Origin: Bacillota bacterium
GTDB taxonomy: Bacteria; Bacillota; Sulfobacillia; Sulfobacillales; JAIMBI01
DNA: 41,727 bases
NCBI GenBank assembly: GCA_021846565.1
Contig: JAJZWS010000026.1
Coordinates: 1-41,727, forward strand
Reading direction: 5' to 3'
The notes beneath the pieces were generated by a model that saw nothing but the letters and a program-made list of their open reading frames with translations, was not told the DNA's origin and made no database searches. The first letter of the stretch is position 1, and every line of letters starts with the position of its first letter. The position numbers were made by a program, and so were the translations under genes. Below, one piece after another: positions 8,108-23,163 of the stretch.

Positions 8108-8287
8108 CCGACGGCAGCACCCTCGGGGGATGGCCAGACGATAGGGAAACCGATGGGTGCGCCGAAAGGGGCACGCTGGCTTGTGCTGGGATGAGCCCTG
8201 GACGTGTCCGCCTCGGCGCTGCCTCAGTCGGATGATCGCGGGCCGCCGCGCATACCGTGCACAAAGCGGGCGCGGGGAGGCCAGGGA

Positions 8288-9034
8288 ATGTGGATCGAGG
8301 TGTGGTCGTGGCGGCGCGTCGTCGGGCGGGCCGCCACGTGGTATGAGCTGGCGGCCGCCGTGTTGGTGGGGCTGGCCCTGGTGGGGGCGCCGCGGTGGGA
8401 GAGCGCGGCGGCCCCGCCGCCTGTGCCAGTGTACCGGGTCATCACCCGGGAACCGGTCATGGCGCTCAGCATCAATGTCGTGTGGGGCACCGAGTTCGTT
8501 CCCCAGATTCTCAGCACCCTGATGGCGGCGCACGTCCCCGCGACGTTCTTTGTGGGGGGCGCGTGGGCGGCGGCCAACCCCGCCTTGGTGCAGCAAATGG
8601 TGCGGGACCAGATGGCGGTCGAAAATCACGGCTACGCGCATCGCCACTCCAATCAACTGTCCTTTCACGAAAACCTGAATGAGATCGCCCGGGCCGCCCG
8701 CGCCATTCAGCTGGCGGGCGCGCCCCGGCCGACCCTTTACGCTCCTCCCTACGGGGAGTTCAACGGTACGGTGCTGGCGGCCGCGGAGGCTTTGCACAAC
8801 CTGGTGATCCTGTGGACCATCGACACAATTGACTGGCGGCCCTCATCGGATGCGGGGCTTATCACCGCTCGCGTGCTGGCCAAGGCCCAGGCGGGGGCGA
8901 TTGTCCTCATGCATCCCACCAGTCGGACCCTCGCGGCTCTGCCCGGCCTGGTGGCCGGCTTGCACGCGGCCGGCTATCACCTGGTAACTGTTCCCCAGCT
9001 CCTCGGGCGCGGTACGCCGACGGGGGACGGCTGA
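8288..9034 (+). CDS. ylxY: YlxY-like polysaccharide deacetylase-fold protein, probably catalytically altered
   Basis: This 248-residue protein has one N-terminal hydrophobic segment (YELAAAVLVGLALVG, residues about 18-35), so it is likely membrane-anchored or secreted. A NodB-homology domain follows. The metal-binding His pair is present (ENHGYAHRH), and YAPPYGEFN and LWTIDTIDW match later NodB motifs. Motif 1, normally TFDDG with the catalytic Asp, reads ALSINVVWG: both Asp residues are missing, as I recall for YlxY proteins. The start is ATG 8288 after GGGAGG (about 8276). It sits between pnp and the M16 peptidase gene exactly as ylxY does in B. subtilis. The 180 nt before it show no recognisable gene. 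Confidence 0.82.
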   Translation: MWIEVWSWRRVVGRAATWYELAAAVLVGLALVGAPRWESAAAPPPVPVYRVITREPVMALSINVVWGTEFVPQILSTLMAAHVPATFFVGGAWAAANPALVQQMVRDQMAVENHGYAHRHSNQLSFHENLNEIARAARAIQLAGAPRPTLYAPPYGEFNGTVLAAAEALHNLVILWTIDTIDWRPSSDAGLITARVLAKAQAGAIVLMHPTSRTLAALPGLVAGLHAAGYHLVTVPQLLGRGTPTGDG

Positions 9035-9112
9035 GGTTCTTGGGCGGGCTGGTACGATACACTGGCACCGAAAGGTGTTGGTGCTTTGGGAACCAAGGGG
9101 GCCCCGGGGGTC

Positions 9113-10414
9113 ATGGAGGTGGAGGCGGCGGCCAACGGGTGTCGCCTCGCCATGGAATCAGGGGGCGCCGGGCACGGGGGCTCCGCGGCGGTGGCCGTCT
9201 TTGTCGGGGCCGGGTCCCGCGACGAGCCGCCGCGCGAGTGGGGAGCGGCGCATTTGCTGGAACACCTGGCGTTCAAGGGTGCCGGTGGTCTCAGCACCGC
9301 GGCATTGGCGGACCGCATGGACCGGTTAGGTGGGGATGTCAACGCTTATACAACGCGCGAAGTGACGTGCTACCACGCGCACTGCCTGGCCGAGGACTGG
9401 GAGGCCGCGTTCGAGCTGGTGTGGGCACTGGCCACGGCCCCGCACCTCGAGGCCGAAGACCTGGAGCGGGAGCGCGGGGTGGTGGAGGCCGAACTGCGCG
9501 AGGCACTGAACGATCCGGAGGACCGCGCAGAAAACACGTACCTGAAAGCATTGTGGGGAGACCACCCGGTTTCCCGCGAAGTTTTGGGATCGGCGGCCAG
9601 TCTCCGGCGGATGACGATCGAGGGACTTCGGGCCTTTCACACGCGGACCTATGCGCCCGCACGGACCTTGGTGGTGGTGGCAGGCGGCTGGGGGGGGCCG
9701 GATCCTGCGGAGGCGCGAGCTCGAATGTTGCGTCGGATGGCCGCGTGGGCACCGTCGCCCGCGCTCACCCCGCCGCCGCGGGGCGAGCCGACGGCGTTTG
9801 GCGCGGAGCGTCTGACGCGGGTAGCCGGAGACCAGGCCTATGTCGTGATGGGATGGCCGGCGGTGCCTTGGAACCACCCGGATGCGATGATTTATCGAAT
9901 GCTGGGCGTTGTGCTCGGGGGGCAGAACACCAGTCGGCTGTGGCAGCGCATCCGGGAGCAAGAGGGCCTAGCTTATCAGGTGGGGGCCGGGTACAGCGGG
10001 CACCGGGACCACGGGGACCTGTCGCTGTCCGCGGCCGTCGCCGCCGATCAGGTGGAGCGCGTGGTCACCGAGATGGCGGCCGAGTGGCGGGGGATCACCG
10101 AGCGGCCGCCGACGCCGGACGAACTGGACCGCGCGGCCACGCAACTCAAAATTGGCATTGTGTTTCAGGAGGAAAGTCCAGAAGGCCGCCTCCATCGCGT
10201 CGCGCCCTGGGTAGCAGCTGGCTGGACGGTGCCGACCGTGGCGGATCTGGTGGCCGCCGTAGACCGCGTCCGCCGGGACGACGTGCTGCGCGTGGTGGAC
10301 GAGGTGAATCGGCAGGGCATGCCGCGCATCGCACTGGCCGCGGCGGGCCCGCGGCGGGCCCTGGTGCCGGGGCTGCGGGCGCGGTTTGTGGATGAAACCG
10401 GCGTGCCGTCCTGA
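9113..10414 (+). CDS. mlpA: M16 family zinc peptidase, MlpA/YmxG type
   Basis: This 433-residue, two-domain M16 (pitrilysin-like) peptidase carries the inverted zinc motif HLLEH near residues 47-51. The downstream Glu lies in the ERERGVVEAELREALNDPED region. GGDVNAYTTREVTCYHAHCL and GGQNTSRLWQRIREQEGLAYQVGAGY match the substrate-cavity and C-terminal R/Y regions. ATG 9113 aligns best with family N-termini. An upstream in-frame TTG (9086) has a fair ribosome-binding site (GAAAGGTG) and would add nine residues. Its place after ylxY and before ymxH matches B. subtilis, where the protein is linked to regulation of secreted proteases. The exact role here is inferred. Confidence 0.93.
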   Translation: MEVEAAANGCRLAMESGGAGHGGSAAVAVFVGAGSRDEPPREWGAAHLLEHLAFKGAGGLSTAALADRMDRLGGDVNAYTTREVTCYHAHCLAEDWEAAFELVWALATAPHLEAEDLERERGVVEAELREALNDPEDRAENTYLKALWGDHPVSREVLGSAASLRRMTIEGLRAFHTRTYAPARTLVVVAGGWGGPDPAEARARMLRRMAAWAPSPALTPPPRGEPTAFGAERLTRVAGDQAYVVMGWPAVPWNHPDAMIYRMLGVVLGGQNTSRLWQRIREQEGLAYQVGAGYSGHRDHGDLSLSAAVAADQVERVVTEMAAEWRGITERPPTPDELDRAATQLKIGIVFQEESPEGRLHRVAPWVAAGWTVPTVADLVAAVDRVRRDDVLRVVDEVNRQGMPRIALAAAGPRRALVPGLRARFVDETGVPS

Positions 10415-10443
10415 CGGGCCGTCGCGACGCCGGGGAGGCGACC

Positions 10444-10857
10444 ATGAGTGAGGGGGAGGAGTCGTTGGGCAACGGGGTGGGGGACGACCGACTGGGAATC
10501 ATCTTCGCCTGGCAGCAGCGCTTCCAGGAGGACCTGGTGGCACGGCGGGGACTGGACTTTGACGAGCGCACCTGGATTCAGAAGCAGGCGTTGGCCCTCA
10601 TCGTGGAGTTGGGTGAGGTGCTGGAAGCCGCTCAGTTCAAGTGGTGGAAAAACCCGGAGTCGTGGGACCGGGCCCATCTGCACGAAGAGCTGGTGGATGT
10701 GCTGCACTTCTACGTGGCCATGTGCCTGGCGGCCGGGATGACCGCGGAGGACCTGTTTCAAGGGTACCTGGCCAAGAACCAGGAAAACTTTCGCCGCCAG
10801 GCTGGTCAGTCCGCCAAACCCGGGTACGCCGCGCCCTTGACCGGAGCCGGCGACTAG
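10444..10857 (+). CDS. Dimeric all-alpha dUTPase / MazG-like nucleotide pyrophosphohydrolase
   Basis: This 137-residue all-alpha NTP-pyrophosphatase is closest to dimeric dUTPases (dUTPase_2), which hydrolyse dUTP to dUMP. The Mg-binding signature is visible as E-L-G-E-V-L-E-A and, after the KWWKNPESW loop, E-E-L-V-D-V-L-H-F. AGMTAEDLFQGYLAKNQENF is the typical C-terminal helix. KFKWWK-like loops between the acidic helices are characteristic of this subfamily. The start ATG 10444 follows GGGGAGGCG. It is an insertion relative to the B. subtilis mlpA-ymxH pair. Substrate choice (dUTP or another nucleotide) is inferred. Confidence 0.82.
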   Translation: MSEGEESLGNGVGDDRLGIIFAWQQRFQEDLVARRGLDFDERTWIQKQALALIVELGEVLEAAQFKWWKNPESWDRAHLHEELVDVLHFYVAMCLAAGMTAEDLFQGYLAKNQENFRRQAGQSAKPGYAAPLTGAGD

Positions 10858-10910
10858 GGCGGCGCGCCGTGGACATAGCCCTCGGTCCCCCCACATAAAG
10901 TTCCCCGGGG

Positions 10911-11177
10911 GTGTTGGAGGTGCGCTTTTCGGGTCTCGCGGGCAAGGAGATCATTAACTTGCGCGACGGCGAGCGGTTGGGCCACCTGGGCGACTGCGAC
11001 CTGGAAGTCGATCCCAGCGGATCGTTGCAGACGCTGGTCATGCCCGAGCGCCGCGGCGTAGGGCGTGGGCGCCGTCGGGTGAGCATTCCGTGGTCGGCGG
11101 TGCAGCGCATTGGGCCCGACGTTCTCATTGTGGATCTCGCACCCGCCGACCTGCCCAAAACCTGGCGCGGGGTGTGA
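10911..11177 (+). CDS. ymxH: YmxH/YlmC family PRC-barrel sporulation-associated protein
   Basis: This 88-residue single-domain PRC-barrel protein has the YlmC/YmxH pattern: FSGLAGKEIINLRDGERLGHLGDCDLEVD, then ISIPW-like VSIPWSAVQRIGPDVLIV. In B. subtilis ymxH lies between mlpA and the dipicolinate synthase genes. Here it keeps that relative order, but other genes have been inserted on both sides. The biochemical role of the family is unknown. The start is GTG 10911 (or TTG 10914), with only a weak ribosome-binding site. Confidence 0.85.
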   Translation: MLEVRFSGLAGKEIINLRDGERLGHLGDCDLEVDPSGSLQTLVMPERRGVGRGRRRVSIPWSAVQRIGPDVLIVDLAPADLPKTWRGV

Positions 11178-11217
11178 GACCCCGTGTAGGTCTCTGCCCA
11201 CTGCCACACACTACCCG

Positions 11218-11245
11218 GCGACCGCCCCCTCCGGGGGCCGGTCGC
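11218..11245 (+). terminator. Strong GC hairpin after ymxH
   Basis: GCGACCG (11218-11224) plus CCCCC (11225-11229) pair with GGGGG (11233-11237) and CGGTCGC (11239-11245), leaving a single bulged C and a 3-nt loop. No U-run follows, so it is either a poor intrinsic terminator or an mRNA-stabilising stem. It separates ymxH from the next gene by position. Confidence 0.4.
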
Positions 11246-11264
11246 AAACATCTCAAAAGGTGGG

Positions 11265-11594
11265 GTGCCTGTGTGGGTCATGGCGTTCTTTGACACCCGA
11301 CAGCGGCGGGACCAGGCGGCAGCGCGCCTGCCGGCCAGCATGGTGGACCAGGTGTATCGCGAGGACCCCGAGACGCTCCCCGATGGAGCGGACGGGCCCG
11401 GCGGCCTGACGGTGGCCGAGCTGCCGGTCGCGGGGCCCATCCCGCCTACGGAGCCGGTGACGGGGGCCAGCGCCCCGCGGGCGGACGCCCGGTATCAGCT
11501 GGCGGTCTCGACGCACCGCCCGGATGCCGTGTCGGGCTGGCTGGCCCAACATTACGCGCGGTGGGTGGAGCTGTCCGATGCCCCGCCTCGCTGA
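11265..11594 (+). CDS. Uncharacterised 109-residue protein upstream of the dapL-like gene
   Basis: I do not recognise this family. The start is GTG 11265 after AAAGGTGG (about 11255-11262), a plausible ribosome-binding site. The N-terminus reads PVWVMAFFDTRQRRDQAAARL, a beta strand followed by a helix, resembling small ferredoxin-fold stress proteins with a V-A-x-F-D/R start, but this is only an impression. The middle is Pro/Gly-rich, and a final YQLAVSTHRPDAVSGWLAQHYARWVEL segment could be a second strand-helix unit. Its last 17 nt overlap the aminotransferase gene, whose ribosome-binding site lies inside this frame. That suggests coupled translation and makes a real gene likely. Confidence 0.6.
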   Translation: MPVWVMAFFDTRQRRDQAAARLPASMVDQVYREDPETLPDGADGPGGLTVAELPVAGPIPPTEPVTGASAPRADARYQLAVSTHRPDAVSGWLAQHYARWVELSDAPPR

Positions 11595-12756
11595 CCGCAT
11601 GGTCCAGCTTACGCCCTACGTGTTTCAGTCCATTGGGTGGGAGATGGCGCAGAGGCGCGCGCGGGGTGAAGACGTGGTCGACTTGGGCATCAGCGATCCG
11701 GACCTGGCCCCGTCGCCGCGGGTGGTGGCCGCCCTGGCCGCGGCGGCCGCCCGCGCGACAAGCCACCGCTACCCCCCCTACCGCGGAGCCAGTGGGCTCC
11801 GGCAGGCGGTGGCGGCCTGGTATCGGCGGCACTTTGACGTCGTGCTGGACCCGGAGCGCGAAGTGTGGATCACGCTGGGGTCCAAAGAGGCCTTGGTGCA
11901 CCTGACCCTCGCACTGGTCAACCCAGGCGACGTCGTCCTGGTGCCGGATCCCGGCTATCCGTCTTATCGCATGGCGGGCGCCCTGTTTGGCGCCCGGACA
12001 GTGGACGTGCCGCTTTCACCGGCGCCGCACTTTCTCCCCGACCTGAGTCGGTTGGCGCCGGGGGACGCGGCGCAGGCCCGGGTCTGGTACGTCAACTATC
12101 CCAACAACCCCACCGGTGCGGTCGCCACGCCGGCTGCGATGCGAGACTGGGTGGCGTTCTGCCAACGCCACGACACGGTGCTGGTGAGCGATCTGGCGTA
12201 CGCCGAGCTGGTTTATGACGGACGCGCGGCCAGCGTCCTGGAGATACCCGGCGCGAAGCCCTGGGTGCTGGAAAGTCTCACGTGGTCCAAGGGCCATAGT
12301 TTGCAGGGATGGCGCGTGGGCGCGCTGGTGGGCAGCGCGGAGCTCATCCAGGCGGTTGGGCGCGTCGAAGCCAACGTGAATGCCGGCGTGTTTCTCGCGA
12401 TCCAGGATGCGGCGGCCGAGGCCCTCGCGCACGACCACCCCGAGACCCGGGCCCGCCGCTACCGTGCACGGCGCGACTTGGTCGTGTCGCGCCTGGCGGA
12501 CGCGGGCATTGCGATTCCGGTCCCGCCGGCGGCGGTGTACTGCTGGGTGCCGGTGCCCGGAGGGGATGGTGACGCCCTCGCCCGCACCGCGTTGGCCGCC
12601 GGGGTGGCCGTCGCGCCGGGGTCCGCGTTCGGGCCCGCCAGCCGCGGATATATCCGCCTCAGCCTTACCCACCCTGATGCCGTCCTGGCGCGTGGCCTGG
12701 ATCGGCTGGCCGCCGTCTGGGCCGATGCCCGGGAGCCGGCCACGCTCTCCACTTAA
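11578..12756 (+). CDS. dapL: Class I/II PLP aminotransferase, LL-diaminopimelate aminotransferase-like
   Basis: This 392-residue fold-type I aminotransferase has the PLP-binding Lys in LTWSKGHSLQGWRVG (K238), the NYPNNPTGAV segment, and the VPDPGYPSYRMAGALFG and GSKEALVHLTLALVNPGDVV stretches. These, with LGISDPDLAPSPRVV and SHRYPPYRG, resemble DapL enzymes, which convert tetrahydrodipicolinate directly to LL-diaminopimelate. The neighbouring dpaAB, asd, dapG and dapA genes make this substrate likely, but other aspartate/alanine-type aminotransferases share the motifs. ATG 11578 was chosen because it follows GGTGGAG by 7 nt; it overlaps the preceding gene by 17 nt. dapB is not in the window. 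Confidence 0.78.
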   Translation: MPRLADRMVQLTPYVFQSIGWEMAQRRARGEDVVDLGISDPDLAPSPRVVAALAAAAARATSHRYPPYRGASGLRQAVAAWYRRHFDVVLDPEREVWITLGSKEALVHLTLALVNPGDVVLVPDPGYPSYRMAGALFGARTVDVPLSPAPHFLPDLSRLAPGDAAQARVWYVNYPNNPTGAVATPAAMRDWVAFCQRHDTVLVSDLAYAELVYDGRAASVLEIPGAKPWVLESLTWSKGHSLQGWRVGALVGSAELIQAVGRVEANVNAGVFLAIQDAAAEALAHDHPETRARRYRARRDLVVSRLADAGIAIPVPPAAVYCWVPVPGGDGDALARTALAAGVAVAPGSAFGPASRGYIRLSLTHPDAVLARGLDRLAAVWADAREPATLST

Positions 12757-12792
12757 CCGCGGCGCCGACCGGCTTCGTCCTGCCTGCACCAC

Positions 12793-12836
12793 ACCTCCGA
12801 TCCATCCGTATAGTGAGCCGAGGTCGGATCGGAGGT
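12793..12836 (+). promoter_or_regulatory. Perfect 11-bp inverted repeat covering the dpaA ribosome-binding site
   Basis: ACCTCCGATCC (12793-12803) and GGATCGGAGGT (12826-12836) are exact inverse complements around a 22-nt loop. The right arm contains GGAGGT, the dpaA Shine-Dalgarno sequence, 4 nt from ATG 12841. In RNA the stem would hide the ribosome-binding site. The loop also contains TATAGT (12809-12814), a possible -10. If transcription began there, the left arm would be missing from the transcript and the repeat would act as a DNA operator instead. Confidence 0.6.
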
Positions 12837-12840
12837 CGGG

Positions 12841-13731
12841 ATGACCACATACGCTTCAGAACACAGGCCCCCCATCCTGGTGGTGGGCGGGGATCGGCGC
12901 GAGGAAGCTCTCGTGTTGCGGTGGCGGCAGCGCGGCGGGCTGGCCCAGGCGTTTGGGCACACCCCCGCCCAGACGGGTCTCCCCCCGGCCGCGCTGCTTC
13001 ACGGTGCCTTGGTGGTGGCCCCGCCTTCAGGCATTTCGTCCGAGGGACACGTGCGCGCGGCCGCGGGCACTCTGGTGCTCCCGGCGCAGCGTCTCGCCAG
13101 CACCCTGGGGGTGATGGCCGGCGCCGTGGCCTCCGAGTGGGCCCGGCAGCTGGCGGTTCCCTGGGCGGCGTATCGCGAGCGTCCCACTTTTGCTTGGCCC
13201 AACGCCATTCCGACCGCCGAGGGGGCCTTGGCGTGGGCGCTCGGGTCCGGGGACACCACGGTCGCGGGGTCGCACCTGGTGGTCGCCGGCCTGGGCCGCG
13301 TCGGCACTGCCCTGGCCGTACGGGCCCAGGCCCTGGGGGCGGAGGTGGTGGTGGTGGATCGGGATCCGGCAGCCCGCGGGCGGGCCCGGGCTCTAGGGCT
13401 GGAGGCGGTACCCTTCGGCCCGGGCATGCTGGCGGGGGTTGATTGGCTGTTCAACACCGTACCCGTTCCCGTCTTTGGTGTGGAGGACGTTCTCCACCTG
13501 CCCCCCCGAGCGCACGTGTTGGACCTGGCGTCCCTGCCCGGTGGGTTTCAGGCGGGGGTGGCGGAGGCACTCGGAACCCGCCTCGTGGTGGACCGTGCGG
13601 TGCCCGGGCGCGTCGCGCCGAAGACCGCCGCGGAGGTGTTGGAGCGCTGTGTGGTCGAAATTTGGCGGCAGTGGCATGAGGCAGCCGGCCCCCCGAGGTG
13701 GGGTGGGCCGAGGGAGGGAGAGGCGCCGTGA
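12841..13731 (+). CDS. dpaA: Dipicolinate synthase subunit A
   Basis: DpaA with DpaB oxidises a dihydrodipicolinate-pathway intermediate to dipicolinic acid in the mother cell; Ca-dipicolinate then fills the spore core. This 296-residue protein has a C-terminal NAD(P)-binding Rossmann domain (VVAGLGRVGTALAVRAQALGAEVVVVDRD, about residues 140-170). It also has the DpaA-specific NAIPTAEGALAWAL helix and the DLASLPGGFQ...PGRVAPKTAAEVL stretch. It is also called SpoVFA. The 3' end overlaps dpaB (GTGA). Expression would be expected late in the mother cell, and the inverted repeat at its ribosome-binding site may add control. Its presence marks the organism as a true endospore former. Confidence 0.95.
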   Translation: MTTYASEHRPPILVVGGDRREEALVLRWRQRGGLAQAFGHTPAQTGLPPAALLHGALVVAPPSGISSEGHVRAAAGTLVLPAQRLASTLGVMAGAVASEWARQLAVPWAAYRERPTFAWPNAIPTAEGALAWALGSGDTTVAGSHLVVAGLGRVGTALAVRAQALGAEVVVVDRDPAARGRARALGLEAVPFGPGMLAGVDWLFNTVPVPVFGVEDVLHLPPRAHVLDLASLPGGFQAGVAEALGTRLVVDRAVPGRVAPKTAAEVLERCVVEIWRQWHEAAGPPRWGGPREGEAP

Positions 13732-14318
13732 GCTTACACAACGTGCGGGTGGGCGTGGCGGTCGGCGGTTCGCATTGCAACATGGACCGAGCAGTCGATA
13801 CAATGAAGCGGCTTCGGGCGGCGGGAGCGGTGCTGACCCCGGTCATGTCCAGGGCGCTGTTGCGAGATGCGACCCGCTTCGGCAGCCCCGACGACTGGTG
13901 GGGACGCGTGGCGGAAGCCGCCGGGCAGGAGCCGCTGACGACGATTCCCGAGGTGGAGCCGAGCGGACCCCAGTATTGGTTTGACGTCATGTTGGTGATG
14001 CCGTGCACCGGCAATACCTTGGCCAAGGTGGCCAATGCCATCAACGACAGCCCCACCACCATGGCGGTCAAGGCCCAGTTGCGCAACACGCGGCCCGTCG
14101 TCATGGCTATCACCACCAATGACGCGTTGGGTATGAACGCCATGAACCTGGGCCGGCTGCTGGCGTGCCGAGGCATTTACTTTGTCCCGTTCGGGCAGGA
14201 CAATCCGACCGAGAAGCCGCGCTCGGTGGATGCGCATCTGGAGCTGACGGAAGAAACCATTGCGGCGGCGCTGCGCGGCGAGCAGCTCCAGCCCCTGATT
14301 CGAGAGTGGAGGCGGTAG
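13728..14318 (+). CDS. dpaB: Dipicolinate synthase subunit B
   Basis: DpaB (SpoVFB) is a flavoprotein-fold partner of DpaA. The 196 residues include VRVGVAVGGSHCNMDRAVDTMKRL (N-terminal nucleotide-binding strand-loop-helix), DVMLVMPCTGNTLAKVANAINDSPTTMAVKAQLRN and ITTNDALGMNAMNLGRLL, all diagnostic for the flavoprotein-like family. GTG 13728 overlaps the dpaA stop and follows GGGAGGGAG by about 8 nt. A longer in-frame extension to 13698 lies within dpaA and is not needed. The pair is followed directly by asd, dapG and dapA, the same order as in B. subtilis. Confidence 0.95.
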   Translation: MSLHNVRVGVAVGGSHCNMDRAVDTMKRLRAAGAVLTPVMSRALLRDATRFGSPDDWWGRVAEAAGQEPLTTIPEVEPSGPQYWFDVMLVMPCTGNTLAKVANAINDSPTTMAVKAQLRNTRPVVMAITTNDALGMNAMNLGRLLACRGIYFVPFGQDNPTEKPRSVDAHLELTEETIAAALRGEQLQPLIREWRR

Positions 14319-14321
14319 CAG

Positions 14322-15359
14322 GTGGTGGGGGCGGGACTGGTGGACAGGGGCCCGATTGCGGTGGTGGGCGCCACGGGTCTTGTGGGGGAGATGCTGCTGG
14401 ATCTGCTGGCGGCGGTCGGCGTGCCGCGGGCGGCGGTGATGGCCTTGGCCACAGAGCAGAGCGTGGGACGGACGGTGCCGTATGGGAGAGAGACCCTCTC
14501 GGTGCGTGCATTGGACGAGGAGACCCTGGGCGGGGCCGCCGTCGCCTTTCTGGCGACGCCCAACCCGGTGTCGGCCCGGTGGGGACCGTGGGCGGCCGCG
14601 CGGGGCACGTTCGTGATCGATAAGTCGAGCCACTGGCGCCTGGACCCCGCCGTCCCCCTGGTGGTGCCCGAGGTCAACGCGCACGTGCTAACCCCGGCGG
14701 TGCGTCTCGTGGCCACACCCAACTGCTCCACGATTCCCCTCGCGATGGTGTTGGACGTGGTGCGGCGCCACCGCGGATTGGTTCGCGTGCTGGTCTCCAC
14801 GTATCAAGCCGTGTCGGGGAGCGGACGCGGCGCCGTCGAGGAATTGGCTGCACAGGAGCGGGCTCGGGTCGAGCGGGCAGCGGAGCCGGCGCCCCGGGTG
14901 TACCGTGCCCCGATCGCGGGCAATGTGCTGCCCGAGTGCGATGCCCCGGGGGCCGACGGCTTTACCGGGGAGGAATGGAAATTGATGCGGGAAACACAAA
15001 AACTTTTAGAGAGCGCGGTGCCGGTGGTGGCCACGGCCGTGCGGGTCCCGGTCGCGGTCGGCCACTCCGAGTCGGTGGCCATTCAATGCACGAGCGCGGT
15101 GACGGCCGACGACGTGCGGGAGTGGCTGGGCGCTGCGCCCGGCATTCGTCTCGCGGACGACCCCGACCGGGGGATTTGGCCCACGCCCCGGCAGGCGGCG
15201 GGCACGGACGATGTCTGGGTGGGGCGCATTCGGTCGGATCCCTACGCCGATGACACCGTCCACTTGTTTTTGTCCTGCGACAATCTGCGCAAGGGAGCCG
15301 CGTTGAACGGCCTTCACATCCTGCAGGCAGCCATCGGGCGGGGGGCGATATCGGCGTGA
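14322..15359 (+). CDS. asd: Aspartate-semialdehyde dehydrogenase
   Basis: Asd reduces aspartyl phosphate to aspartate semialdehyde with NADPH, the branch to lysine, diaminopimelate, threonine and methionine. In 345 residues it shows the NADP loop VVGATGLVGEMLL, the active-site Cys in ATPNCSTIP (C135), STYQAVSGSGRGAVEEL, GNVLPECD and the later His/Arg region RVPVAVGHSESVAI. GTG 14322 follows the dpaB stop by 3 nt, with GTGGAGG about 10 nt upstream. The stop overlaps the dapG start (GTGA). The initial eight residues (VGAGLVDR) may be extra relative to homologs. Confidence 0.96.
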   Translation: MVGAGLVDRGPIAVVGATGLVGEMLLDLLAAVGVPRAAVMALATEQSVGRTVPYGRETLSVRALDEETLGGAAVAFLATPNPVSARWGPWAAARGTFVIDKSSHWRLDPAVPLVVPEVNAHVLTPAVRLVATPNCSTIPLAMVLDVVRRHRGLVRVLVSTYQAVSGSGRGAVEELAAQERARVERAAEPAPRVYRAPIAGNVLPECDAPGADGFTGEEWKLMRETQKLLESAVPVVATAVRVPVAVGHSESVAIQCTSAVTADDVREWLGAAPGIRLADDPDRGIWPTPRQAAGTDDVWVGRIRSDPYADDTVHLFLSCDNLRKGAALNGLHILQAAIGRGAISA

Positions 15360-16564
15360 AGGTGATTGTGCAGAAGTTTGGCGGGACGTCGGTGCAGAGC
15401 GAGCGTCACCGCGAGCGCGTTGTGGAGCTGGTGGAGCGCGCCCGGGCCGAGGGCTATCGGCCAGTGGTGGTGGTGTCGGCCATGGGACGTCAAGGGGCGC
15501 CGTATGCGACCGACACCCTCCTGTCGCTGGTGGACGCTGCCGCTCTCGAGCCGGAGCATTTGGACCTGCTCTTGGGGTGCGGCGAGGTGATTGCCGCCGC
15601 GGTGGTGGCGTCCTGCCTGGTTCGGCGAGGTATTGCGGCGGTGCCGCTGACCGGCGGGGCGGCCGGCATTGTGACGGACGGGGCCCACGGCAGCGCCCGC
15701 ATCCTGGAGGTGGACCCCACGCCAGTCGAGGCGCTGCTGGCTGGGGAGCGCGTGCCCGTCGTGGCCGGATTTCAGGGGCGCACGCGCGAGGGCAAGCTCA
15801 CCACGCTGGGGCGCGGGGGATCGGATACCACGGCCACAGCGCTGGGGGCGGCCTTAAAGGCCGAGGTGGTGGACATCTTCACCGATGTCGAGGGCCTGAT
15901 GACGGCTGACCCGCGCATTGTGTCGGACGCTCGCCGCGTCCCGGCCGCCGACTACGACGAGGTGCTGCAGATGGCGACGCTGGGCGCACGGGTCGTGCAC
16001 CCGCGCGCCGTCGAGATTGCGCGGCAGTTTTCCGTGCCGCTGCGCATCCGTAGCGCGTTCTCCGATACGGACGGCACCATGGTGGGGGCGGCGCCCCGCA
16101 CGCTGGACTCGTGGGCACACCGAGAGCCATCCAGCGCCGTGACCGGGGTGACCGCGCTGTCCGGCCTGGCGCAGTGTTCCGTGGAAACGCCCGCCGGAGA
16201 GGCCAACTGGGCGTGGCGGCTGTTCCAGGCACTGGCCGAGGCGGGCATCTCGGTGGACCTGATCAACGTGTTTCCGGAGCGCGCGTATTTTTGCATTCCC
16301 GGGGAGCACAGCGCTCGCGCCCGCGAGGTGGCGCGCACCCAGCAGCTCGTGTGCGCCATTCACGGCGATCGGGCCAAGGTGTCGGTGGTCGGGTCGGCCA
16401 TTCACGGGCTGCCCGGCGTGATGGCCCAGGTGCTGTCCGCTCTATCGGATGCCGGCATCGAGGTGCTCCAAACGGCCGACAGTCACTCGACGATTTCGTG
16501 CCTGGTGGAGCGGGCAGCGATGGAGCCGGCCGTGCGCTGTCTGCATCAGAGCTTTGGCTTGTAG
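15356..16564 (+). CDS. dapG: Aspartate kinase (single-function, ACT-regulated)
   Basis: This enzyme phosphorylates aspartate, the first step of the aspartate family. It has 402 residues. Catalytic motifs are KFGGTSV at the N-terminus, GRGGSDTTATALGAALKA and the FTDVEGLMTADPRIV loop. The C-terminal third has two ACT domains: around TGVTALSGLAQCSVETP and around AKVSVVGSAIHGLPGVMAQVLSALSDAGIEVLQTADSHSTISCLV. The second is the typical ligand-binding site. In B. subtilis the kinase at this position (DapG) is inhibited by diaminopimelate; the same is likely here but not provable from sequence. The GTG start overlaps asd. Confidence 0.95.
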   Translation: MKVIVQKFGGTSVQSERHRERVVELVERARAEGYRPVVVVSAMGRQGAPYATDTLLSLVDAAALEPEHLDLLLGCGEVIAAAVVASCLVRRGIAAVPLTGGAAGIVTDGAHGSARILEVDPTPVEALLAGERVPVVAGFQGRTREGKLTTLGRGGSDTTATALGAALKAEVVDIFTDVEGLMTADPRIVSDARRVPAADYDEVLQMATLGARVVHPRAVEIARQFSVPLRIRSAFSDTDGTMVGAAPRTLDSWAHREPSSAVTGVTALSGLAQCSVETPAGEANWAWRLFQALAEAGISVDLINVFPERAYFCIPGEHSARAREVARTQQLVCAIHGDRAKVSVVGSAIHGLPGVMAQVLSALSDAGIEVLQTADSHSTISCLVERAAMEPAVRCLHQSFGL

Positions 16565-16587: not shown

Positions 16588-17487
16588 ATGGCAGCGGCCG
16601 GCGGGCGGGACCTGGCGAGCGTGGCGGTGTTCACGGCCATGGTCACGCCGTTTTTGGCGGACGGAACGTTGGATGCGGAGGGGGTCGGCCACCTCGCAGC
16701 GTGGCTCGCCCAGCATGGATCGGAGGCGCTGGTGCTGGGGGGCACGACCGGTGAGGGCCCGACGCTCTCGGTGGACGAACGCCACCGCCTGTTCGACGCC
16801 GCTCGGGCCGCCGTCCCGCAGTTGCCCCTCTTCGTATCCACGGGTCACAACAGCACAGCCACCACGATCGAGTGGACCCAGGCGGCGGAAGCCTGGGGCG
16901 CCGACGGGGCGATGGTGGTGACGCCCTACTACAACAAACCACCCCAGGCGGGGTTGACGGCGCACTTTGGCGCGGTGGCCGCTGCCACCCGTCTTCCCCT
17001 CATGCTGTACAACGTCCCAAGCCGCACCGGGGTGCACCTGGCGGTGGAGACCACTCTCGGGCTCATGGCGCGGCACCAGAACGTGTGGGCCGTCAAAGAA
17101 GCGTCTGGGGCAGTGCAGCATGCGGCCGATCTAGCAGCCCGCCTGCCCGCGGGGCGCCGGGTGTTTACGGGCGAGGACGCGCTCCTGCTGCCGTCCCTCC
17201 AGGCAGGGGTCCACGGGATCGTCAGCGTGGCCAGCCACGTGGCGGGGCCCGAGATACAGTCTCTCATTGCGTATGTCGCCGCAGGGCGGCTGACCGCCGC
17301 CGCGGAGGTGGCGGACCGCCTCGCCCCCGTAATTGCCGTCCTGTTTTCGGTCTCGAACCCCATCCCGGTCAAGGGACTCCTGAACCGCCGCGGCCTGCCC
17401 GCTGGCCCGCCCCGGTTGCCGCTCGTGCCGGCATCGGATGCCGAGTTGGCGGAGTGGGGCCGCGTGCTGGCGGCGGCCGGCCTATGA
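16588..17487 (+). CDS. dapA: 4-hydroxy-tetrahydrodipicolinate synthase
   Basis: DapA condenses pyruvate and aspartate semialdehyde, the committed step toward diaminopimelate and dipicolinate. It is a TIM-barrel Schiff-base lyase of 299 residues. GGTTGEGPTLS, the catalytic Tyr in LYNVPSRTG (Y141) and the Schiff-base Lys in AVKEASG (K170) are intact, as is GIVSVASHVAG. ATG 16588 follows GGAGGGGAGG by 7 nt; GTG 16585 immediately before it is a weaker alternative. It closes the asd-dapG-dapA operon. Downstream DNA is decayed. Confidence 0.96.
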   Translation: MAAAGGRDLASVAVFTAMVTPFLADGTLDAEGVGHLAAWLAQHGSEALVLGGTTGEGPTLSVDERHRLFDAARAAVPQLPLFVSTGHNSTATTIEWTQAAEAWGADGAMVVTPYYNKPPQAGLTAHFGAVAAATRLPLMLYNVPSRTGVHLAVETTLGLMARHQNVWAVKEASGAVQHAADLAARLPAGRRVFTGEDALLLPSLQAGVHGIVSVASHVAGPEIQSLIAYVAAGRLTAAAEVADRLAPVIAVLFSVSNPIPVKGLLNRRGLPAGPPRLPLVPASDAELAEWGRVLAAAGL

Positions 17488-21439: not shown

Positions 21440-21471
21440 AAGGGAGGCGCTCCACAGGGAGCGCCTCCCTT
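21440..21471. terminator. Bidirectional intrinsic terminator between convergent genes
   Basis: AAGGGAGGCGCTC (21440-21452) pairs perfectly with GAGCGCCTCCCTT (21459-21471). The stem extends one more pair to close an ACAG loop. It lies between rnjB (plus strand) and the ytrI-like gene (minus strand), overlapping the latter's stop codon. The T- and A-rich flanks are short, but the symmetry suits both directions. Confidence 0.75.
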
Positions 21472-22359: not shown

Positions 22360-23163
22360 TTGCGTGAGGCGCGGTCGGGCGACGAACCGGAGACAGGAAA
22401 ACGGCCCAAAACCGCCAACCGAGAGGCGCGGGAAAACCTGGAGGCACTGGGCACACCGGAGGTGCCCACCAGCCAGAGCCGTCTCCACACCCTCGTGATC
22501 ATTGGGCAAATCGAGGGACATCTGCAACTGCCGTCCCAGAACAAAACGACCAAGTATGAGCACGTGATTCCGCAGCTCATCGCCATCGAGGAGAACCCGG
22601 ACATCGAGGGGCTCTTAGTCATTTTGAACACGGTGGGTGGTGATGTGGAGGCCGGGCTCGCCCTGGCGGAGATGATTGCGGGCTTGTCCAAACCCACGGT
22701 CGCCCTGGTCCTCGGCGGCGGACACTCGATCGCGGTGCCCGTGGCCGTGTCGGCCCAGCACACCATGATCACGGCCACGGCCACCATGACCATCCATCCG
22801 ATCCGGATGAATGGCCTAGTCATCGGAGTGCCGCAAACCTACGAGTATCTGGACAAGATGCAGGACCGGGTGGTCAACTTTGTCATCCACCACTCCCACG
22901 TCAGTGAGGCCACGTTCCGTGAGCTGATGTTCCGCACGGGCGAGCTGGCGCGCGACGTCGGAACGGTGCTGGTGGGGCAGGACGCGGTGGCGTGCGGCCT
23001 CGTGGACGAAGTGGGCAGCGTCGCCCAGGCCCTGTCGCGGCTGTCGGCCATGGTGGACGCGCGTCCGCGTCCCGCGCGGCCGTCCGAGCCACCGCGCGCG
23101 CGGCGACGTCGGTCCTCGCGGAGCGCGCGGCGGAGCACCACGGCGGTGCATGCGCCCCATTAG
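22360..23163 (+). CDS. tepA: TepA/YmfB ClpP-fold protease-like protein
   Basis: TepA is a ClpP-like serine protease in the crotonase/ClpP superfamily, reported in Bacillus as a translocation-enhancing or spore-related protease. In 267 residues it has [21 protein letters not shown] and [18 protein letters not shown], and the nucleophile region [12 protein letters not shown] (Ser in GHS). [10 protein letters not shown] carries the likely catalytic His. A 30-residue Arg-rich tail ([13 protein letters not shown]) at the C-terminus is unusual. The start TTG 22360 follows GGAAGGGGACG. Its divergent neighbour is ytrH, and ylzJ follows, as in B. subtilis. Confidence 0.92.

Follow-up and report, generated by a model that had tools for sequence, protein, structure and literature searches.

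In bacteriophage T4, translation of gene e depends on which promoter made the RNA: long early transcripts mask the Shine-Dalgarno sequence (SD), those from nearby late promoters do not, and the effect is described as 100-fold (PMC3014915). The same report treats the leaders of soc, 49 and I-TevI as alike, late-promoter RNA without the 5' strand being translated. In Bacillus subtilis, according to the account in PMC5942855, a hairpin with over 20 base pairs has been proposed to block the read-through RNA of sigG, and this hairpin is impossible in RNA from the sigG promoter. Here we describe an element that, by its anatomy, appears to be of this kind: an inverted repeat just upstream of dpaA, encoding dipicolinate synthase subunit A, in a 41,727-nt stretch (the window) of a Bacillota bacterium of the order Sulfobacillales (assembly GCA_021846565.1, contig JAJZWS010000026.1, our contig C122; the draft genome comprises 134 contigs and 3.4 Mb). 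We think it probable, with moderate confidence, that a promoter lying within the hairpin makes translation of dpaA depend on the transcript, and the element may thus function as its precedents do.

The precedents differ from the dpaA case in several respects. The T4 leaders belong to a phage, respond to the late sigma factor gp55 and were established by experiment (PMC3014915), whereas the dpaA case is argued here from sequence. The sigG arrangement shares a sporulation gene located behind another operon with a hairpin excluded from its own-promoter RNA (PMC5942855), but it involves another gene, sigma factor and cell (the forespore), and dpaA belongs to a metabolic operon that continues with asd and dap genes. 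For the promoter itself, the nearest described case is that of dpaAB in Clostridioides difficile and B. subtilis: a sigma-K promoter drives dpaAB in C. difficile, and the elements given there for another promoter, sigK P2, are a -10 of CATATAAT and a -35 of AC; the parts of that report bearing on these promoters do not mention a hairpin at dpaA (PMC3789822). Judged by titles and the openings of abstracts, our searches of the open-access literature turned up no paper that we recognised as describing a hairpin at the dpaA promoter.

The element and the gene that it precedes comprise the following features.

12785-12789, + strand: -35-like TGCAC, with its AC (12788-12789) 17 nt before the -10; GGAAC, GGCAC or TGCAC at the equivalent position in relatives.
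12793-12803, + strand: left arm, ACCTCCGATCC, of the exact repeat, in the spacer between -35 and -10, complementary to the SD region; the subject of the spacer/5' untranslated region (5'UTR) swap tests below.
12807-12815, + strand: -10 element, CGTATAGTG, in the hairpin loop; pattern shared by 39 of 40 relatives.
12820-12825, + strand: predicted start of the sigma-K transcript, placed by distance from the -10 and the usual promoter geometry.
12826-12836, + strand: right arm, GGATCGGAGGT, exact reverse complement of the left arm, holding the SD GGAGGT (12831-12836).
12841-13731, + strand: dpaA (best models NF006162, E 2.8e-41, and TIGR02853, E 5.6e-36, each under its curated cut-off).

The arms ACCTCCGATCC and GGATCGGAGGT form a perfect 11-bp inverted repeat around a 22-nt loop, and the SD is followed by CGGG and then by the ATG at 12841. 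An earlier note on this DNA had described just such an exact repeat with the SD in its right arm, 4 nt before the ATG, and our coordinates and sequence agree with it. The identification of dpaA itself is based on the best-matching models, although the scores lie below their curated cut-offs.

The note had also raised the possibility that TATAGT in the loop is a promoter, and it proves to be part of a sigma-K-type -10. Compared with a -10 of the CATANNNTA kind, CGTATAGTG has one G for A and G as its last base, and the 17-nt AC spacer falls within the expected range of about 16-18 nt. The pattern CRTATNNTR with AC 16-18 nt before it occurs upstream of dpaA in 39 of the 40 relatives that could be used (those with the N-terminus and 200 nt upstream; 9 of 49 were dropped), compared with a mean of 0.1 in dinucleotide shuffles, and was absent (0) from a control stretch inside the dpaA gene in the same set. 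A sigma-70 scan found no site at the repeat. Across the genome, the sigma-K pattern was found at 4 sites, versus 0 in the reversed control; the three further AC-N17-CRTATANTG sites (L042, L043, L044 at 1501-1528) are candidate sigma-K promoters. As part of the -35/-10 spacer, the left arm is absent from the predicted sporulation transcript, and because the -10 lies between the arms, the hairpin is possible only in RNA read through from upstream. By the position of its -10, then, the gene-proximal promoter is predicted to start RNA after the 5' arm. The earlier note had counted an mRNA 5' end to the right of 12803, with no protein bound, as evidence against its proposal; the sporulation transcript probably does begin there, which would still leave room for a role in read-through RNA.

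At the DNA level, a mother-cell promoter of the sigma-K type would have its -10 in the loop and its -35 immediately upstream of the left arm. In read-through RNA, possibly originating from the aminotransferase gene upstream, the left arm, as the RNA copy of the promoter spacer, would pair with the dpaA SD and block translation, whereas RNA from the sigma-K promoter would begin within the hairpin, lack the left arm and be translated. Since the dpaB start codon overlaps the dpaA stop (GTGA), translational coupling might carry the block on read-through RNA over to dpaB.

By predicted folding energies, the longer, read-through RNA holds the SD in a stable stem, as part of its 3' arm, and opening the SD would cost 14.0 kcal/mol there versus 3.0 in RNA starting at 12822. 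This degree of masking was equalled by only 1 of 300 shuffles of the sequence upstream of the -10, in accord with the proposal in the note that the repeat can sequester the SD in RNA; in two of the genus mates, the same test gave 4/300 (G003) and 6/300 (G001). With gene starts and promoters in relatives assigned by rule, masking reached the 5% level or better at 34 of 110 dpaA starts, compared with 11 of 131 other gene starts from the same loci, and the mean opening cost over the 110 dpaA sequences was 5.5 for read-through RNA, 4.0 for shuffles and 2.4 for the sigma-K transcript. An initial measure of SD masking, based on 66-nt shuffles, also yielded an excess, with 13 of the 39 sequences in the first set at rank 5 or better. 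In example folds of relatives, the -10 sits within the loop region, with a geometry like that of the window.

Further evidence comes from the coupling of spacer and 5'UTR across Bacillota. In the swap test, each 24-nt segment left of a -10 was matched against the +9 to +41 region from all species, and the pairing of a spacer with its own 5'UTR was scored against swapped pairings after removal of row and column means and composition effects; a first version, in which G+C was uncontrolled, was superseded. The windows of the test were settled on data from the class, and the set from other classes was fetched afterwards as a replication with windows unchanged (a phylum-wide genome draw in which 83 of 89 dpaA promoters were usable and 6 were dropped, two of them through a coordinate error; on refitting, one of these two yielded a site, which was left out of the set). 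Thinning removed 20 of 72 sequences in the class set, 25 of 83 in the other-class set and 45 of 155 in the pooled set. Own pairing was stronger in the 52 thinned class sequences (z -4.54, 0 of 20000 permutations as low), including in the order alone (z -3.3), in the other orders (z -2.7) and without the genus of the window (z -4.3), and likewise in the 58 thinned sequences from other classes (z -6.10, 0/10000). With one sequence per family (61 families, 30 draws), z ranged from -4.46 to -6.85, at about -5.6, and with swaps restricted to within families it was -4.09. Shifting the left window by 10 nt abolished the coupling (z -0.2 in the class, -0.3 in other classes). The sliding profile peaks at the -10 itself, the repeat being symmetric about it, and the coupling is stronger in both sets where the SD is near the -10, reaching z -6.26 in other classes when the -10 is within 50 nt of the start codon. 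Counts of in-register CCTCC/GGAGG in 25 sequences showed just a small excess per pair. The two arms show coupled evolution across Bacillota, and the structure is well supported.

As a control, we used yabG, another sigma-K gene, for which a similar promoter was present in 41 of 50 loci (9 dropped); in C. difficile, a YabG-like protease is assigned a sigma-K promoter (PMC3789822). No spacer/5'UTR coupling was found in 32 thinned yabG sequences (z +0.45), compared with z -2.2 to -6.4 in dpaA subsamples of that size. The spoIVA promoters showed no pairing peak at the -10 either, although this is a weak control of 17 thinned sequences, out of 30 usable from 70 loci (an earlier rule had placed sites in 17 of the 70 loci). 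Thus, as far as tested, the coupling is no general property of sigma-K-type promoters.

Several observations weigh against gating by SD masking. In G002, the closest relative, masking was no better than in 60 of 300 shuffles, and by the initial masking measure none of 33 in the class extension, where 24 of 96 rows were dropped, ranked 5 or better. Coupling is weak when the -10 lies more than 50 nt from the start codon (z -2.2 in the class, -1.08 in other classes). Terminator-like sites upstream of dpaA, which would stop read-through in the relatives concerned, were found in 21 of 69 sequences from the class and 11 of 83 from other classes. At close range, the exact 11-bp pairing is confined to the window genome; the three genus mates keep the right arm (one base differs in G001) while the left arm drifts. 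In the genus alignment, 84% of cells pair and the right arm is nearly fixed. The compensatory arm changes that the note had proposed to seek in related genomes were absent or few at this range: two-sided changes affected none of 11 pairs within the genus and, in two close clades, 0 of 15 and 1 of 10. The drift of the left arm without compensation in the genus would not, on its own, support a structure.

Among the other explanations, the one that fares best, although we consider it unlikely, holds that the conserved hairpin affects read-through RNA in some other manner, as an RNase site, in pausing or attenuation, or as an insulator of the sporulation promoter, with SD masking secondary. It would account for the coupling that remains where the SD is far from the -10 (pooled z -2.69, besides the class value above) and for relatives in which the right arm stops short of the SD (L114, L230), but not for the peak of coupling when the SD is within reach, and the hairpin in the window lacks a T-run terminator.

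More doubtful still is that the exact repeat is, in this genome, a functionless product of chance or a relic, made of anti-SD-like spacer pyrimidines in a GC-rich genome. The window contains 3 perfect stems of 11 bp or more with a loop of 3-30 nt, against 0-2 in each of six shuffles, so that stem length by itself is unremarkable and near chance, and the folding z of the repeat region is just -1.1; the uncompensated drift of the left arm in the genus points the same way. The other two such stems lie at 21440-21471 (14 bp, 4-nt loop) and 22739-22780 (11 bp, 20-nt loop). On length alone, a chance stem would be admissible, but it is outweighed by the pattern in the class and phylum, whose geometry the window shares, and by the shuffle results for the window, G003 and G001. 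Chance does not explain how strongly the sequence upstream of the -10 masks the SD, nor does it explain the class- and phylum-wide pattern.

A DNA element, that is, a palindromic operator or cruciform around the -10 controlling the promoter, is very improbable: the symmetry of the repeat about the -10 and an antisense pairing that is itself above chance (z -5.28) speak for it, but paired 10-bp arms occur at one site only in the genome, arm sequences vary between genera while pairing persists, yabG promoters lack such pairing, and sense pairing exceeds antisense over 110 sequences (z -2.97, 18/10000), which favours RNA over DNA, even though the 52 class sequences on their own showed no such difference (z -0.74), a further point against gating in RNA. 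We accordingly rejected an operator. An Rfam riboswitch or leader was likewise rejected, as no family matched the window at its gathering threshold. The note had offered an RNA switch and a DNA operator as alternatives; an RNA hairpin and a promoter are instead favoured together, and neither an operator nor a ligand switch is supported, given arms that differ between genera with pairing kept and the advantage of sense over antisense.

Transcript-dependent gating of dpaA would require read-through RNA, and the gene neighborhood bears on its source and reach.

11548-12756, + strand: aminotransferase (LL-diaminopimelate aminotransferase-like), under cut-offs; an earlier ATG at 11524.
13728-14318, + strand: dpaB, subunit B (NF006161 and TIGR02852 above cut-off), with a GTG start codon overlapping the stop of dpaA.
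14322-15359, + strand: asd, aspartate-semialdehyde dehydrogenase (NF011456 above cut-off).
15356-16564, + strand: aspartate kinase, dapG type (NF006068 above cut-off).
16588-17487, + strand: dapA, 4-hydroxy-tetrahydrodipicolinate synthase (TIGR00674 above cut-off); start chosen by eye.

The aminotransferase gene lies upstream on the same strand and could serve as a read-through source; it likewise precedes dpaA in the three genus mates, and a scan of the window found no terminator between the two genes. From 8204 to 12756 the order is ylxY-like, protease-like (mlpA type), ymxH and aminotransferase, followed by dpaA, which resembles the B. subtilis order with genes inserted before dpaA. The order dpaA, dpaB holds at 30 of 31 loci from the class and 26 of 27 from other classes, and asd comes after dpaB, also on that strand, at 30/31 and 21/27, respectively. 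One relative (G365:C1:1335605-1338074) carries a tandem pair of dpaA-like genes on one strand.

The gene for sigma K in this genome is represented by its N-terminal half beside a recombinase gene, and a search showed no second half. At L034:7-2028 (G000:C105), the sigK frame ends after ...RLATYAARCIEND, beside a convergent large serine-recombinase-like gene, in a skin-element-like arrangement. Thus, sigma K in this strain would need removal of an element, as described for B. subtilis and C. difficile (PMC5025042), or the remaining part of the gene lies elsewhere. Split sigK halves are also seen in G003, in G009 with about 2.7 kb between them and in G011 with about 14.4 kb between them, and an intact sigK above cut-off is present in the genus mate G002 as well as in G005, G007, G008, G010 and G012.

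The asd and dap genes supply lysine and cell-wall precursors. With dpaA translation gated, asd-dapG-dapA could share an mRNA with dpaAB during growth without dipicolinate being drawn from the intermediate of lysine synthesis, although they may also have promoters of their own; HTPA, the substrate of DpaAB, is the branch-point metabolite of lysine synthesis (PMC9024752). The purpose of such a lock would be to separate lysine and cell-wall use from dipicolinate use. That the arrangement extends across Bacillota, the sigma-K spacer of dpaA doubling as an anti-SD strand, a promoter in the mother cell and a translation lock on growth-phase mRNA, is in our judgement an evenly balanced proposition. 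If it holds, a single operon would provide for lysine and the cell wall at one time and for spore dipicolinate at another, and the lock would explain how two uses stay apart without separate operons. Spore heat resistance would then be under one more level of control, conserved and readily testable, and the arrangement described for T4 gene e and sigG would have been retained across many bacterial families.
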